The position numbers and the translations under genes are program-made. Below the pieces are notes generated by a model. The model worked only from the letters and a program-made list of their open reading frames with translations. It did not search any database and was not told the origin of the DNA. From assembly GCA_031292275.1 (NCBI GenBank), contig JARLHL010000015.1:1-64000 (forward strand): DNA of 64,000 nt, in the 5' to 3' direction. Of the stretch, positions 58,220 to 64,000 are shown piece after piece. The number at the start of each line of letters is the position of its first letter. Position 1 is the first letter of the stretch. The DNA is from Desulfocapsaceae bacterium. Lineage in GTDB: Bacteria; Desulfobacterota; Desulfobulbia; Desulfobulbales; Desulfocapsaceae.

Positions 58220-60691
58220 TTATCCTTTGAAAAATCTCAGGCGCAGGGCATTGCTGACGACAGAGACGGAACTCATGGCCATGGCCGCTCCGGCAATCAT
58301 GGGATTGAGGGCGGGACCATGAAATATATACAAGAGTCCCGCCGCCACCGGAATACCTACGATGTTATAGGCAAATGCCCAGAACAGATTCTGCCGGATG
58401 TTGCGCATCACGGCCCGGGACAGGGCCAACGCGGTGAGGACGCCGTCCAGGTTCCCGTTCATGATGACGATGTCGCCGGTTTCGATGGCGATATCGATAC
58501 CGGTCCCCATGGTTATGCCGACATCGGCCTGTGCCAGGGCCGGGGCATCGTTTATCCCGTCTCCGACCATCGCCGTCTTCAGGCCGCTTTGCTGCAACTC
58601 AACAACTTTTCCGGCCTTGTGTTCGGGCAGGACCTGCGCCACCACCTCATCAATGCCCGCCTGGGCGGCTATGGCGCGGGCCGTCGTCTCCTGATCCCCG
58701 GTCAGCATGACGAGCCGCAGGCCCCGTCTCTTCATCCTGGCGATCACCGCAGGCACCTCCTCTTTCAGGGTGTCGGCAATGGCGATTACGGCTGCCCACA
58801 GCCCGTCGACGGCCAGGAAGAGGACGGTCTTGCCCTGACCGGCGAGGTGATCCGCACCGGAGTCCATGTCCTTTAGGGATATACCGGCGGAGAGCAGCAG
58901 CTCCCGATTGCCGAGCAGCAGATCCTTTCCTCCGACCCTGGCCAGGATACCTTTTCCCGGCAGGGCCTCGAAGTGATCAGGCTGAACCAGGGATACGCCC
59001 GCCGCCCTTGCCGCCGCCACGATCGCCTCTGCCAGGGGATGCTCCGACGATTGCTCGGCAGAGCCCATCAGGGCGAGAAGATCGTTTTCGGAAAATGTCC
59101 CGGACAGGTTCACCAGATCAGTCATCTTGGGTCTGCCGTAGGTCAGCGTCCCGGTCTTGTCAAAGAGGACCGCCTGGACCTTTTCAGCCTTCTCCAAGGC
59201 CTCCCCGGTCTTGATCAAGACGCCAAGCTGGGCGCCCCGGCCGGTCCCGACCATGATTGAGGTCGGGGTGGCCAGGCCCATGGCGCAGGGGCAGGCTATG
59301 ACCATCACCGCGATGAAGAACCGGAGCGCCATGCTGAATTCGACGCCGCCGATCACATACCAGGCAATCCCGGTGCAGGTTGCAAGGACCATGACCGCAG
59401 GGACAAAGTACAGACTTATCCGGTCCGCCAGGCCGGCTATGGGCGCCTTGGATCCCTGGGCCTCCTGAACCATGCGGATGATCCTGGCAAGCATCGTGCC
59501 CTCTCCGATCTGTTCGGTCCGGACATGCAGTACCCCATGTTTATTGAGGCTCCCGCCGATGACCCGATCGCCGGCGTCCTTCGAGACCGGCAGACTCTCG
59601 CCGGTCAGCATCGATTCGTCAACGGCGGATCGCCCGTTCTCAACCCTGCCGTCCACCGGAATACGCTCACCGGGACGGATCAGCAGCAGATCGCCGGCCT
59701 CGATCTCTGCGGTCATGATCTCCCTCTGCCCGTCACCGCTCAGCAGGCAGGCCGTCTCCGGCGTCAGCTGCATGAGCCGGGCGATGGCATCCGAGGTGTG
59801 GGTCTTGGAGCGGGTCTCCATATACTTCCCCAAGGAGACTAAAGCGATCAGCACGCCGGCGGATTCATAGTAGAGATCCATGGCCTTCATCTGCGGATCG
59901 ATCCCGAGCATAATCTCCACCAGATTCCAGGTCGAATAGATGAAGGCCGCGCCGGTGCCGATGGCGATGAGCGAATCCATATTGGGGGCTGCGCGGAACA
60001 GGGCCGGAAGGCCGATCAGATAAAAATCACGTCCCAGCCAGAGTATGGGGAGAACAAGCGCCAGCTGCAGCAGGGCAAAGACTGCCGGAGAGGCATGGGG
60101 GTCGGCAAAGGACGGGAGCGGCAGGCCGAGCATCTCCCCCATGGAGAGGGAGAGGAGCGGCAGGGCAAGGACCAGAGCCCCCATCATCCGCCGCTTCATT
60201 GCCGCCAGACGGTGGGCGCTCTCCTGCCGTTTTGTCTGATATTCATCGGCAAGGCCGGCCATCGGCCGCGAGTCGAATCCAAGATCGGCAATGGCCTCCC
60301 GGATCCGCCGCTGGCTGCAGGCATCCTTTCGGTAGACAATCCGTCCGGTCTCCGCCGCCAGGTTGACGCTGGCCGATATCACTCCCGGAAGCTTTCCCAC
60401 CACATTCTCAATCCGGCTTGAGCAGGAGGCGCAGTGCATCCCGGTGATAGCCAGATCAAGGCTGCTGTTTTCCTCCTTGCGGGGTATCACAAGCTCGAAA
60501 CCGAGATCTCTGAGCCTCTTTTCGATGGTGTCGAACCCGGACGCAGCCTCGTCCCAGCTCAGGTCCATGGTCTCCGCCGCCAGGTTGACACTGACCCTTT
60601 CCACCCCCGGCATCCCGGAGACCACCCGTTCTATCCGGCTCGAACAGGCAGCGCAGTGCATCCCTCTGACTTCAGTCCGTATGTGTTTCAT
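58220..60691 (-). CDS. copA: Copper-exporting P1B-type ATPase
   Basis: This 823-residue P1B ATPase pumps Cu(I) out of the cytoplasm. Two N-terminal metal-binding HMA domains each carry [10 protein letters not shown] or [10 protein letters not shown] (about 10-65 and 80-140). The membrane ion site [12 protein letters not shown], phosphorylation site [19 protein letters not shown], and hinge [11 protein letters not shown] follow in order. I start at the ATG at 60691, directly before the first HMA domain; the open frame runs 66 more codons upstream without a family match. It is divergent from the small copper chaperone gene at 60913. Confidence 0.93.
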
Positions 60692-60912
60692 GATTGATAC
60701 GACACCTCTCTCCATCCCATAGGAGCATGCATTGCAGGCTTGCTTTCCCCGCGCGCCGGCACTACAGTAGTTCAACACTGATGATGCCAAAAAATCAGCC
60801 TGTCCCTGCCTCCTGCCGCCGCCGGCCGCAGTTGGACACCGCGGGCGGAGAGTGGAGAGAAAGCGACGGGCAGGCTGCGTAAAGACCATAATTCAATATC
60901 AGGAGAATAACA

Positions 60913-61104
60913 ATGGCGACCGTGAAGATCAAAGGAATGCGTTGCGGACACTGTGTCAATTCGACAAAACAGGCACTGGAAAAGATCCCCGGGATATCCG
61001 AAGTGGCGGTGGACCTGGAAAAAAGCGAAGCCAGCTATAAGGGCGATATCGATCTCAAACTCATTAAAGACGCCATCACCGGGATCGGCTTTGAGGTCGA
61101 GTAG
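60913..61104 (+). CDS. copZ: Copper chaperone, HMA domain (CopZ-type)
   Basis: This 63-residue protein is a single heavy-metal-associated domain, with the metal loop GMRCGHC at 8-14 and the strand-helix pattern of the family. It should carry Cu(I) to CopA. CAGGAGAATAACA before the ATG is a good ribosome site. It is divergent from copA with 221 bases between starts; that region should hold a shared control site, but no CueR or CsoR-type operator was recognised. Confidence 0.9.
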   Translation: MATVKIKGMRCGHCVNSTKQALEKIPGISEVAVDLEKSEASYKGDIDLKLIKDAITGIGFEVE

Positions 61105-61248: not shown

Positions 61249-61719
61249 TCATTCGACCCGGACTCTGCCGGAGGCGCTGAGAATAACTGCCATGCTCCTT
61301 CCGCCGGCGTCGGTCAGGATAAAACGTCCGGCCTTGATCCCGGGCCGGCCGCTGAACCGCATCGTATTGGCAGGATTGCTGAAGTTGCTTGTCAGCGAGA
61401 TGCCGTTTTTCAAGGTACAGGCAACAATCAGCCTCTCTTCCGGCTGCCTGATCCAGTCGCCTGCCTGCCCCGGCACGCGGCTGTTATCCACAAAAATCGA
61501 ATAACCGTTGGACCTGGCCTCAACAACCACGAAGGAATTGGTCTTGACAGCCTCGATCTTCGCCCTGTGCAGACAGCATACCAGCTGCGAGACCTCGCTG
61601 CGAAAATCGAGGCTCCTCGACCAATCCGCCACCGCCGGGTATGCAATCGCGGACAGGGTCGAGACGATCCCCAGAGAAATCAGGATTTCCATCAGGCTGA
61701 CACCCCTCTGACCAATCAT
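61249..61719 (-). CDS. FimT/GspH-type minor pseudopilin
   Basis: This 156-residue protein has the type IV prepilin leader MIGQRG followed by VSLMEILISLGIVSTLSAIAY; cleavage is expected after G6, leaving Val at +1 and the conserved Glu at +5. The rest is a small C-terminal domain of the GspH/FimT form. Minor pseudopilins of this group prime pilus assembly; some bind DNA. AAAGGAGGGGAA precedes the ATG at 61719, which is chosen over an ATG 54 bases earlier. It is read downstream of the sigma-54 activator gene. Confidence 0.85.
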   Translation of the reverse strand: MIGQRGVSLMEILISLGIVSTLSAIAYPAVADWSRSLDFRSEVSQLVCCLHRAKIEAVKTNSFVVVEARSNGYSIFVDNSRVPGQAGDWIRQPEERLIVACTLKNGISLTSNFSNPANTMRFSGRPGIKAGRFILTDAGGRSMAVILSASGRVRVE

Positions 61720-61861
61720 TTCCCCTCCTTTCTGCGCTTCTTCTGCGCACAGATGACATCGGACACTGATCATCGGCCGGATATTCGCATCTCTCTTCCT
61801 GGATAAACGCCTTATTTTCCAGGCCGCAAGGAGTACCCCTGGCCGACAGAAGCCCCTTTAA

Positions 61862-63190
61862 TCAGGCAAGGCGGTAGTCTTTGATCTTGTTTAAAAGCGA
61901 CGGATAGCTGATCTCGAGAAGACGGGCGGCCCTGGATTTATTGTTGCCCGCCTCCACCAGCGCCGCCTGGATCATCCTCCGCTCCACCTGTCTTTGCGCC
62001 TCCTTCAACGAAAAGCTCCCCCAGACGGGAGGCCGGGAGTCAGGGTCTTTGCCGCCAAGAATACCGGGAGGTAATTGCCCGATATCGATAAGCGAATTTT
62101 CAGCAAGCACCATGCCTCTCTGGATCAGGTTCTCCAGTTCGCGGATATTGCCGGGCCACGGGTAGCGCCTCAATCCGTCCATGGCGGCCGCACTTATACC
62201 CGCCACGTCCCTCTTCAGAATCTGCCGGTATTTCTCGATAAAATACCGGCAGAGCAGCGGGATGTCGTCCGGCCTCTTCCTGAGCGGCGGCAGGTCGACG
62301 GAAACGACATTCAGGCGATAGAACAGATCCTCCCGAAACAGCGCCTGCCTGACATCCCGGGCGAGATCCCGTGCCGTTGCCGCCACAATCCGCACATTTA
62401 TCCTCCTGGTGCCGGAGGCACCCAGCGGCCTGATCTCGCCGTCCTGCAGGACCCGCAGCAGCTTGACCTGCATCGGCAGCGGAAGCTCGCCGATCTCATC
62501 GAGAAAGAGAGTGCTGCCGTCGGCCTCCTCGAATATGCCCTTCTGGTTCCGGTGCGCCCCGGTGAAGGCGCCTTTCCTGTATCCGAAAAGCTCGCTCTCC
62601 AGCAGATTTTCCGGGATGCCACCGCAGTTAATTGCAAAAAACGGCCTCTCCCGGCGCAGAGAGTGCCGATGAATGCCCCGGGCGATCAGCTCCTTGCCGG
62701 TACCGGACTCGCCGGTTATCAGCACCGTGGTATCATAGGCCGCTATTTTTTCGCAGAGGCGGATTATGGCCCGGATTTCTTCATTCTGACCGACAATCGC
62801 ACCAAAGCCGCCGCCCCTGCCGGATTCGTCTGGTTTCGTTTGCGGCACAAGGCGTTCCTGCCGTGCCCCCTCTCCGGCAGGCCTTGATGGGGCATTGCCG
62901 GCCCCCATCGCCTGCAGGGCCATCTCCGCGGTCCGGTAGGACGACATCAGGATCGCCCCGGAGCCGTTGATCATCTCTTCCGCCAATCGCCGGAATTTCT
63001 GGCCGTCCATACCTCCCTGACAATGGATGCAGTCGATGGACTGCAGGCAGGCCCGAGGCTGAAACCCGGTCTCACTGCCGTCGGGCACAGGGGCCTGACG
63101 CCTGCGCACCACCTCCGCTATACGGCGCATATTGTCTTCCGTATCGGTGATCAACAGATGTCTCGCAGCTGCCTTCAGTAGGTGCTCCAT
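61862..63190 (-). CDS. Sigma-54-dependent transcription activator (PilR-like)
   Basis: This 442-residue enhancer-binding protein has an AAA+ domain with Walker A GESGTGKE (160-167), the sigma-54 contact loop GAFTGA (207-212) and DEIGE (231-235), and a C-terminal Fis-type helix-turn-helix (about 400-440, NNKSRAARLLEISYPSLLNKIKDY). The front 120 residues are not a working receiver: around the MDG block the phospho-acceptor Asp is missing (IDCIHCQGGMDG), though LMSSYRTAEMALQAM still looks like receiver helix 4. The Cys set C48, C54, C57 is odd. ATG at 63190 follows GGAG by about 8 bases. It faces the pilA sigma-54 promoter, its probable target. Confidence 0.88.
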   Translation of the reverse strand: MEHLLKAAARHLLITDTEDNMRRIAEVVRRRQAPVPDGSETGFQPRACLQSIDCIHCQGGMDGQKFRRLAEEMINGSGAILMSSYRTAEMALQAMGAGNAPSRPAGEGARQERLVPQTKPDESGRGGGFGAIVGQNEEIRAIIRLCEKIAAYDTTVLITGESGTGKELIARGIHRHSLRRERPFFAINCGGIPENLLESELFGYRKGAFTGAHRNQKGIFEEADGSTLFLDEIGELPLPMQVKLLRVLQDGEIRPLGASGTRRINVRIVAATARDLARDVRQALFREDLFYRLNVVSVDLPPLRKRPDDIPLLCRYFIEKYRQILKRDVAGISAAAMDGLRRYPWPGNIRELENLIQRGMVLAENSLIDIGQLPPGILGGKDPDSRPPVWGSFSLKEAQRQVERRMIQAALVEAGNNKSRAARLLEISYPSLLNKIKDYRLA

Positions 63191-63600
63191 GGAATGACTC
63201 CTGAGGGAATGCATCCATCTCTGCCACAAGCATTGCCAAAAAGACCAACTCTCAAAAACGGGATCATGCCGGGTGCGCCCGGCATGCAGATCAGGGGAGG
63301 GATGCACTGTTGGAACCGGAATCGATCACCACTGCAGCGGGACCAGCTCTCGGGCCTGTCCGCAGGATGAAGCCTGTTTCCGGGATTCTCCCTGCAGGCG
63401 GAAATCAGCCTTCACAAGGACAGGGATTCAACGTTCGCAGACCGTCGGGCGGAGGCATCGCGGCGCGGGCGGGCGCCCTCCTTTTATAGGAAGAGATATA
63501 CGCTACAATCCTCAAGAGGGAAAGAAAAATAATGCTCCATTTTCCAGAACAAGGCCATTGGCACTGCAACACCGATCGATACAAAAGGTACTTCCGATAC

Positions 63601-63671
63601 TGACGTTTTTTGTCTTTCCTGACACTTTTACGTCACCGATACCTGACATTTTTATGCAAGTACTCCTGACA
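63601..63671 (+). repeat. Phased TGAC repeats upstream of the pilA promoter
   Basis: TGAC occurs at 63601, 63620, 63644 and 63667, the last three as CCTGACA; the first and third share a longer CCGATAC...TGAC(G/A)TTTTT block. Spacings of 19, 24 and 23 bases are near two DNA turns. The complement TGTCAGG contains the (C/G)TGTC-like core described for PilR in Pseudomonas. Confidence 0.55.
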
Positions 63672-63757
63672 CAAACACAGCACTTATACCTATCACACAT
63701 AAGCATCTTTATGATTTTGCAAGAAATAAATTTTATTTAATTCCTAACATCAACAAA

Positions 63758-63773
63758 TGGCACGTCAATTGCT
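63758..63773 (+). promoter_or_regulatory. Sigma-54 (-24/-12) promoter of pilA
   Basis: TGGCACGTCAATTGCT matches the sigma-54 consensus TGGCACG-N4-TTGCT completely, with the GG and GC elements 10 bases apart. Transcription should start about 12 bases downstream, leaving a leader of some 50 bases before the ATG at 63838. Confidence 0.93.
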
Positions 63774-63837
63774 CTATCTCCGGCAATGGTTTTGAAACAG
63801 GTTCAATAACCGTAAACACATCAATGGAGGAAAAAAA

Positions 63838-64000
63838 TGACTTTACAGCAAATCAGTACCCTGCACAAGAACAGCAAAGGCTTCACCTTAATCGAGTTGA
63901 TGATCGTCGTCGCCATCATCGGTATCCTGGCCGCCATCGCCATCCCGCAGTTCGCTGCCTATCGGATCAGGGGGTTCAACGCCTCGGCTCAGAGTGATCT
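63838..64000 (+). CDS. pilA: Type IV major pilin, 5' part (cut by the window edge)
   Basis: The first 54 residues of a type IVa pilin are present. The 15-residue leader [15 protein letters not shown] ends at a Gly; cleavage by prepilin peptidase would leave Phe at +1 (F16), with the conserved Glu at +5 (E20), in [32 protein letters not shown] gives a strong ribosome site. The gene has a perfect sigma-54 promoter and faces the PilR-like gene. The C-terminal part lies beyond the edge, so length and any conductive-pilus features cannot be judged. Confidence 0.95.

Follow-up and report, generated by a model that had tools for sequence, protein, structure and literature searches.

The pilA upstream region

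The window, by which we mean the whole 64,000-nucleotide stretch analysed, ends within a major pilin gene. This gene, its promoter, a cluster of TGAC-containing repeats and a divergent activator gene occupy the last kilobases:

61249–61773, minus strand: GspH-type pseudopilin gene, downstream of pilR, with the same neighbour in the sister genome G002
61862–63190, minus strand: pilR orthologue, with a decayed receiver, an intact AAA+ sigma-54 activation domain and a Fis-type helix–turn–helix (HTH)
63191–63836: gap between pilR and pilA, 646 bp (the equivalent in G002 is about 5.7 kb and holds pilS and other genes)
63601–63615: TGACGTTTTTTGTCT, a degenerate copy of TGACA-W5-TGTCA, 157 bp before the −24 element
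63618–63624, plus strand: CCTGACA repeat 1, left arm of the second site, read directly
63620–63635: TGACACTTTTACGTCA, a second dyad, TGAC-N8-GTCA, with an 8-bp spacer, read directly
63642–63648, plus strand: CCTGACA repeat 2, predicted half-site of TGACATTTTTATGCA (63644–63658), which ranks 14th in the window by position weight matrix (PWM)
63665–63671, plus strand: CCTGACA repeat 3, predicted half-site only, by direct reading and PWM
63758–63773, plus strand: sigma-54 promoter TGGCACGTCAATTGCT, matching the consensus TGGCAC-N5-TTGCW
63837–64000, continuing to about contig position 64445, plus strand: pilA, an intact major type IV pilin gene (202 amino acids)

Direct reading of the window places the four TGAC starts at 63601, 63620, 63644 and 63667, with spacings of 19, 24 and 23 bp; the first belongs to a CTGAC that starts at 63600 and is not a full CCTGACA. 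An earlier note on this DNA had described three CCTGACA copies and one TGAC at intervals of 19–24 bases, 90–160 bases before a sigma-54 promoter for pilA, and this description holds, with repeats 157 to 91 bp upstream of the promoter and a promoter that matches the consensus. The promoter pattern has 12 matches in the genome (none in the reversed control), and TGGCACGTCAATTGCT starts 79 bp before the pilA ATG (63837). No match to the integration host factor (IHF) consensus, with up to one mismatch allowed, was found between the enhancer region and the promoter. The repeats had also been called ‘phased’, which is too strong a word because the spacings do not correspond to an integral number of turns of the helix: assuming 10.5 bp per turn, the sites lie at angular positions of about 0, −69, +34 and +103 degrees.

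The cluster is not a product of chance. Three CCTGACA copies within 54 bp occur once in the 4.1-Mb genome, and two of the four CCTGACA-N8–30-CCTGACA pairs genome-wide are in this cluster. Among 2,000 dinucleotide shuffles of positions 63560–63837, a 278-bp stretch picked around the cluster after the earlier note had pointed to it, none had three CCTGACA within 60 bp and one had four TGAC within 75 bp. Lone copies of CCTGACA carry little weight because the motif is common throughout the window (18 observed versus 7.3 expected); the excess is also present outside the cluster. Arrays of at least three same-strand TGAC or GTCA precede some other pilin genes as well, so clustering per se is not peculiar to this genome.

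A conserved dyad before major pilin genes

Pilin genes were sought in the home genome (G000) and in 80 other members of its family, mostly draft genomes, and upstream regions were taken from the fetched loci. TGAC-N7-GTCA lies upstream of 38 of 54 major-type pilins and 3 of 55 other pilins; every other TGAC/GTCA spacer from 0 to 20 occurs at most twice among the 54 major-pilin regions. The 39 dyads used for a sequence logo have the 15-bp consensus TGACA-W5-TGTCA (a perfect example from a relative is TGACATTTTTTGTCA). As the logo regions were chosen by the dyad, the conservation of TGAC and GTCA is by construction, and the fair tests are the spacer comparison and a reverse search that starts from the dyad. 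Because the search imposed those columns only, the remaining positions provide independent support: A at position 4 in 39 of 39, T at position 10 in 37 of 39 and exclusively A or T at positions 6–9.

In the reverse direction, the strict dyad was found in 48 of 93 family genomes, at one to three copies per genome, and a prepilin motif follows 100–480 bp downstream at 20 of 30 loci (one per genome). The distance from the dyad start to the −24 element is 152–166 bp in the 13 cases with a recognized sigma-54 match. A weaker second site follows the dyad, most commonly at an offset of 20 bp (19 of 38, with a scoring tie-break toward 21). Across the phylum, 12 of 395 sampled genomes have a dyad and a sigma-54 match at this spacing (reversed control, 0), and several of these matches precede pilin genes, including tandem pilins with their own dyads. 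In two genomes of family f9 (G097 and G170; loci L210, L211 and L214–L217), adjoining pilin genes each have a TGACA-W5-TGTCA of their own roughly 350 bp upstream of the prepilin motif; a sigma-54 match lies between dyad and motif. Genomes of family f45 (L203 in G465; also L201, L202 and L204) have two dyads 23 bp apart; G465 carries TGACAAAAAATGTCA twice, at a spacing that resembles the 23–24 bp of the window. We found no published TGACA-N5-TGTCA PilR site in the open-access literature.

With a matrix built from the relatives’ dyads, TGACGTTTTTTGTCT is the top match in the 64-kb window. Its position falls within the 152–166 bp seen in relatives, and both outer consensus A residues are changed. 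The first TGAC of the cluster is the left arm of TGACGTTTTTTGTCT and the second is part of TGACACTTTTACGTCA, a dyad structure that the earlier note had overlooked; the N8 spacer of TGACACTTTTACGTCA is the only case among the 54 major-pilin upstream regions. The pilA upstream region of the window has no perfect TGACA-W5-TGTCA. The only perfect copy in the home genome is elsewhere (contig C109:52032; L191:1533–1547), with no prepilin motif 100–480 bp downstream.

These comparisons indicate that the repeats correspond, in altered form, to an element that precedes the major pilin gene in many relatives. The copy that appears to be conserved is TGACGTTTTTTGTCT, to the earlier note the weakest-looking of the repeats, and the CCTGACA copies would be additions or remnants, apparently half-sites of further imperfect sites. 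The CCTGACA direct repeat therefore does not stand as the repeat unit, since what relatives conserve is the dyad; conservation before relatives’ pilins holds for the dyad and fails for the exact CCTGACA triple, which is absent there.

An activator with a decayed receiver

The activator encoded at 61862–63190 matches Pfam Sigma54_activat (1.8e-69) and HTH_8 (5.1e-11), and its translation contains the GESGTGKE and GAFTGA motifs. Its best relative is in G002, a full-length match (1.7e-158), and the two genomes have a common gene order, with a P-type ATPase, gspH and pilR on one side and pilA and an ABC transporter on the other; pilR and pilA also share a contig in G002, G038 and others. The recognition region of the HTH is conserved with relatives, including the ISYPSLL.KI helix. 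Similarity and synteny together identify the neighbouring activator as the PilR orthologue. The earlier note had the gene facing the repeats; it is divergent, with its 5′ end nearest to them. At least 18 loci in the home genome match the activator family, so the site might serve a different activator. A small gene for a heavy-metal-associated-like protein (60913–61104, plus strand; MRCGHC; named by eye) adjoins the P-type ATPase gene (58220–60889, minus strand).

The receiver domain has no Response_reg hit at an E-value of 0.001. In alignment with family relatives, whose receivers retain the phospho-acceptor Asp and the switch Lys, the phospho-Asp position is Gln, the acidic pair DD has become DT, the switch Lys aligns to Arg and the β5–α5 segment after the switch position is shortened. 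The receiver is 37% identical to that of G002, the AAA+ domain 75% and the HTH 65%, versus 77%, 63% and 56%, respectively, between G001 and G002. An AlphaFold model has pLDDT values of 31–66 for residues 1–130 and mostly 80–92 in the AAA+ domain. The pilR frame is open without stops, and its third-position GC in this part equals that of the rest of the gene. A frameshift as the cause of receiver loss was ruled out, as the receiver matches the annotated frame only; this and the unchanged third-position GC indicate that the alterations are in-frame and coding. Given the lost phospho-acceptor, we class the protein as a PilR orthologue and not as a working response regulator, a decay observed in one genome. 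Residues 48–57 (63020–63049, minus strand), in the region of the former phospho-Asp, read CLQSIDCIHC, a Cys-X5-Cys-X2-Cys arrangement that may have arisen by chance or may form a metal or redox site. FleQ-type activators are likewise sigma-54 activators with a degenerate receiver that lacks the phospho-acceptor; FleQ controls flagella and responds to c-di-GMP, whereas synteny makes the gene in the window a PilR orthologue.

The home genome, an assembly that is 99.98% complete, yielded no pilS orthologue; the best match scores 127 bits, mainly in the kinase core, compared with 363–1,117 bits for PilS matches in the relatives G001, G002, G038 and G086. Positions 60–64 kb of the window contain no significant PilS match, and no pilS remnant was detected inside the pilR–pilA gap. 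A misjoined contig is unlikely because the flanking genes on both sides follow the G002 order. Between pilS and pilA, G002 has small nucleotidyltransferase-like genes and an ATPase-like gene (L190:5466–8499; named by eye), which are absent from the gap in the window. Among relatives, a PilS-like match lies beside pilR at 27 of 29 loci (one is a fragment at a contig end). G041 and G042, which have none beside pilR, have intact receivers, so receiver decay need not promptly follow the loss of PilS. G041 has pilS elsewhere in the genome; none was seen in G042, a 90% complete draft in which pilR is near a contig end.

Proposed mechanism and alternatives

We consider it likely that this DNA serves pilA as an upstream activating sequence, to which the product of the divergent pilR gene binds, and that the arrangement has been remodelled to PilS-free, phosphorylation-independent control. 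In relatives, PilR would most likely sit on the strong TGACA-W5-TGTCA dyad and on the weaker site that follows about 20 bp later; bound about 155–165 bp before the sigma-54 promoter, it would loop to RNA polymerase–sigma-54, and its AAA+ domain would open the promoter. In the home genome, with pilS apparently gone and the PilR receiver presumably no longer phosphorylatable, four imperfect sites at 19–24-bp intervals would replace the strong dyad. PilR may bind these clustered weak sites cooperatively, and may be self-active or governed by its own amount or by another partner. Binding, looping, phosphorylation-independent activity and the cooperative role of the extra sites are all predictions from sequence comparison. 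The earlier idea of enhancer sites used by the adjacent PilR-type activator is well supported by the conserved dyad position, the orthology and synteny of PilR and its retained HTH, but not in its phased CCTGACA unit; the ordinary PilS–PilR control that it implied does not fit the lost phospho-acceptor site and the absence of a detected PilS.

The dyad is most likely the PilR binding site. Among genomes that are at least 90% complete, the strict dyad occurs in 35 of 46 with a PilR orthologue (called by an E-value cut-off) versus 5 of 15 without one (P = 0.004, ignoring kinship), an association that appears positive but incomplete. Those five genomes, the numerous further activators per genome and the position of the home genome’s one perfect dyad away from a pilin would suit a different regulator, either a second sigma-54 activator or a regulator unrelated to sigma-54, that controls pilA here and in relatives. 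We regard this as quite unlikely, given that pilR adjoins pilA here and shares its contig in G002, G038 and others, that the association with PilR is positive, that the dyad has the geometry of the site of the PilR paralogue NmpR, GCGCA-N5-TGCGC (PMC11841059), and that PilR sites of P. aeruginosa are described by GTCT elements (PMC6058289).

Alternatively, the system may simply be decaying, with pilS lost, PilR and its operator drifting to non-function, pilA weak or silent and the repeats mere remnants. The decayed receiver, the missing pilS and the lack of a perfect dyad agree with such a course, but the AAA+ domain is still 75% identical to that of G002 with its motifs intact, the pilR frame is free of stops and does not differ from the rest of the gene in codon-position GC, the consensus sigma-54 promoter and the 202-amino-acid pilA are intact, and a triple CCTGACA is not expected from decay; we judge it unlikely. 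Far less probable is that the repeats arose by chance or by simple tandem duplication and regulate nothing. Although CCTGACA is generally in excess in the window and the exact triple was not found before relatives’ pilins, no shuffle out of 2,000 reproduced the triple, it is unique in the genome, and the motif lies at a position that is conserved in relatives.

A broader version of the preferred reading, remodelling to PilS-free control, is a permanent exit from two-component control, which we offer tentatively and with somewhat less than even confidence. Loss of pilS would have been followed by decay of the receiver, with the ATPase and DNA-binding halves remaining constrained and the strong dyad giving way to a cluster of weak sites; a kinase-independent activator would replace the pilin-sensing switch, and the Cys-X5-Cys-X2-Cys motif could be a new sensor.

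Relation to known systems and implications

PilR activity in P. aeruginosa is set by PilS, which interacts with pilin, and nearby GTCT elements are a hallmark of PilR sites (PMC6058289). As in the PilS–PilR systems of P. aeruginosa, Myxococcus, Geobacter and Azoarcus, the locus combines a PilR-type activator with a sigma-54 promoter before the major pilin, and its upstream sites share TGTC/GTCT half-sites with those of P. aeruginosa. It differs in that the home genome has no detected pilS and a receiver without a phospho-acceptor, and in that relatives carry a sharply defined dyad of 15 bp, located about 155–165 bp before the −24 element. That PilR could operate without PilS is plausible because deletion of pilS does not abolish pilin expression in Azoarcus, and pilA of Myxococcus is reported to require PilR and not PilS (PMC3262810).

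The Nps–Npa/pilE system of commensal Neisseria similarly consists of an NtrC-type activator, an upstream activating sequence and a sigma-54-dependent pilin gene, but the Neisseria activator has its own kinase and receiver, and a site for IHF, which bends DNA, lies between activator site and promoter, where none was matched here (PMC6528607). NmpR of Myxococcus xanthus, which is NtrC-like, recognizes a dyad of the same 5-5-5 layout, in two copies before sigma-54 promoters; its half-site differs, its copies are usually 14–15 bases apart compared with about 5 bases (the 20-bp offset) in the relatives here, and it is phosphorylated by its kinase (PMC11841059). We rejected the pilin regulator DVU2114, from the mapping of Desulfovibrio regulators, as the same system because it concerns Tad-type pili (PMC3333781).

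The dyad would be a precise pilin operator that extends through the family and outside it; the descriptions of PilR sites that we found in the open-access literature are of loose half-sites. The home genome may represent a natural case of a two-component regulator that is apparently without its kinase and phosphorylation site and has kept its target promoter. It raises the questions of whether pilin can be expressed when no PilS monitors its level, and of how an operator changes once receiver-driven control is lost.
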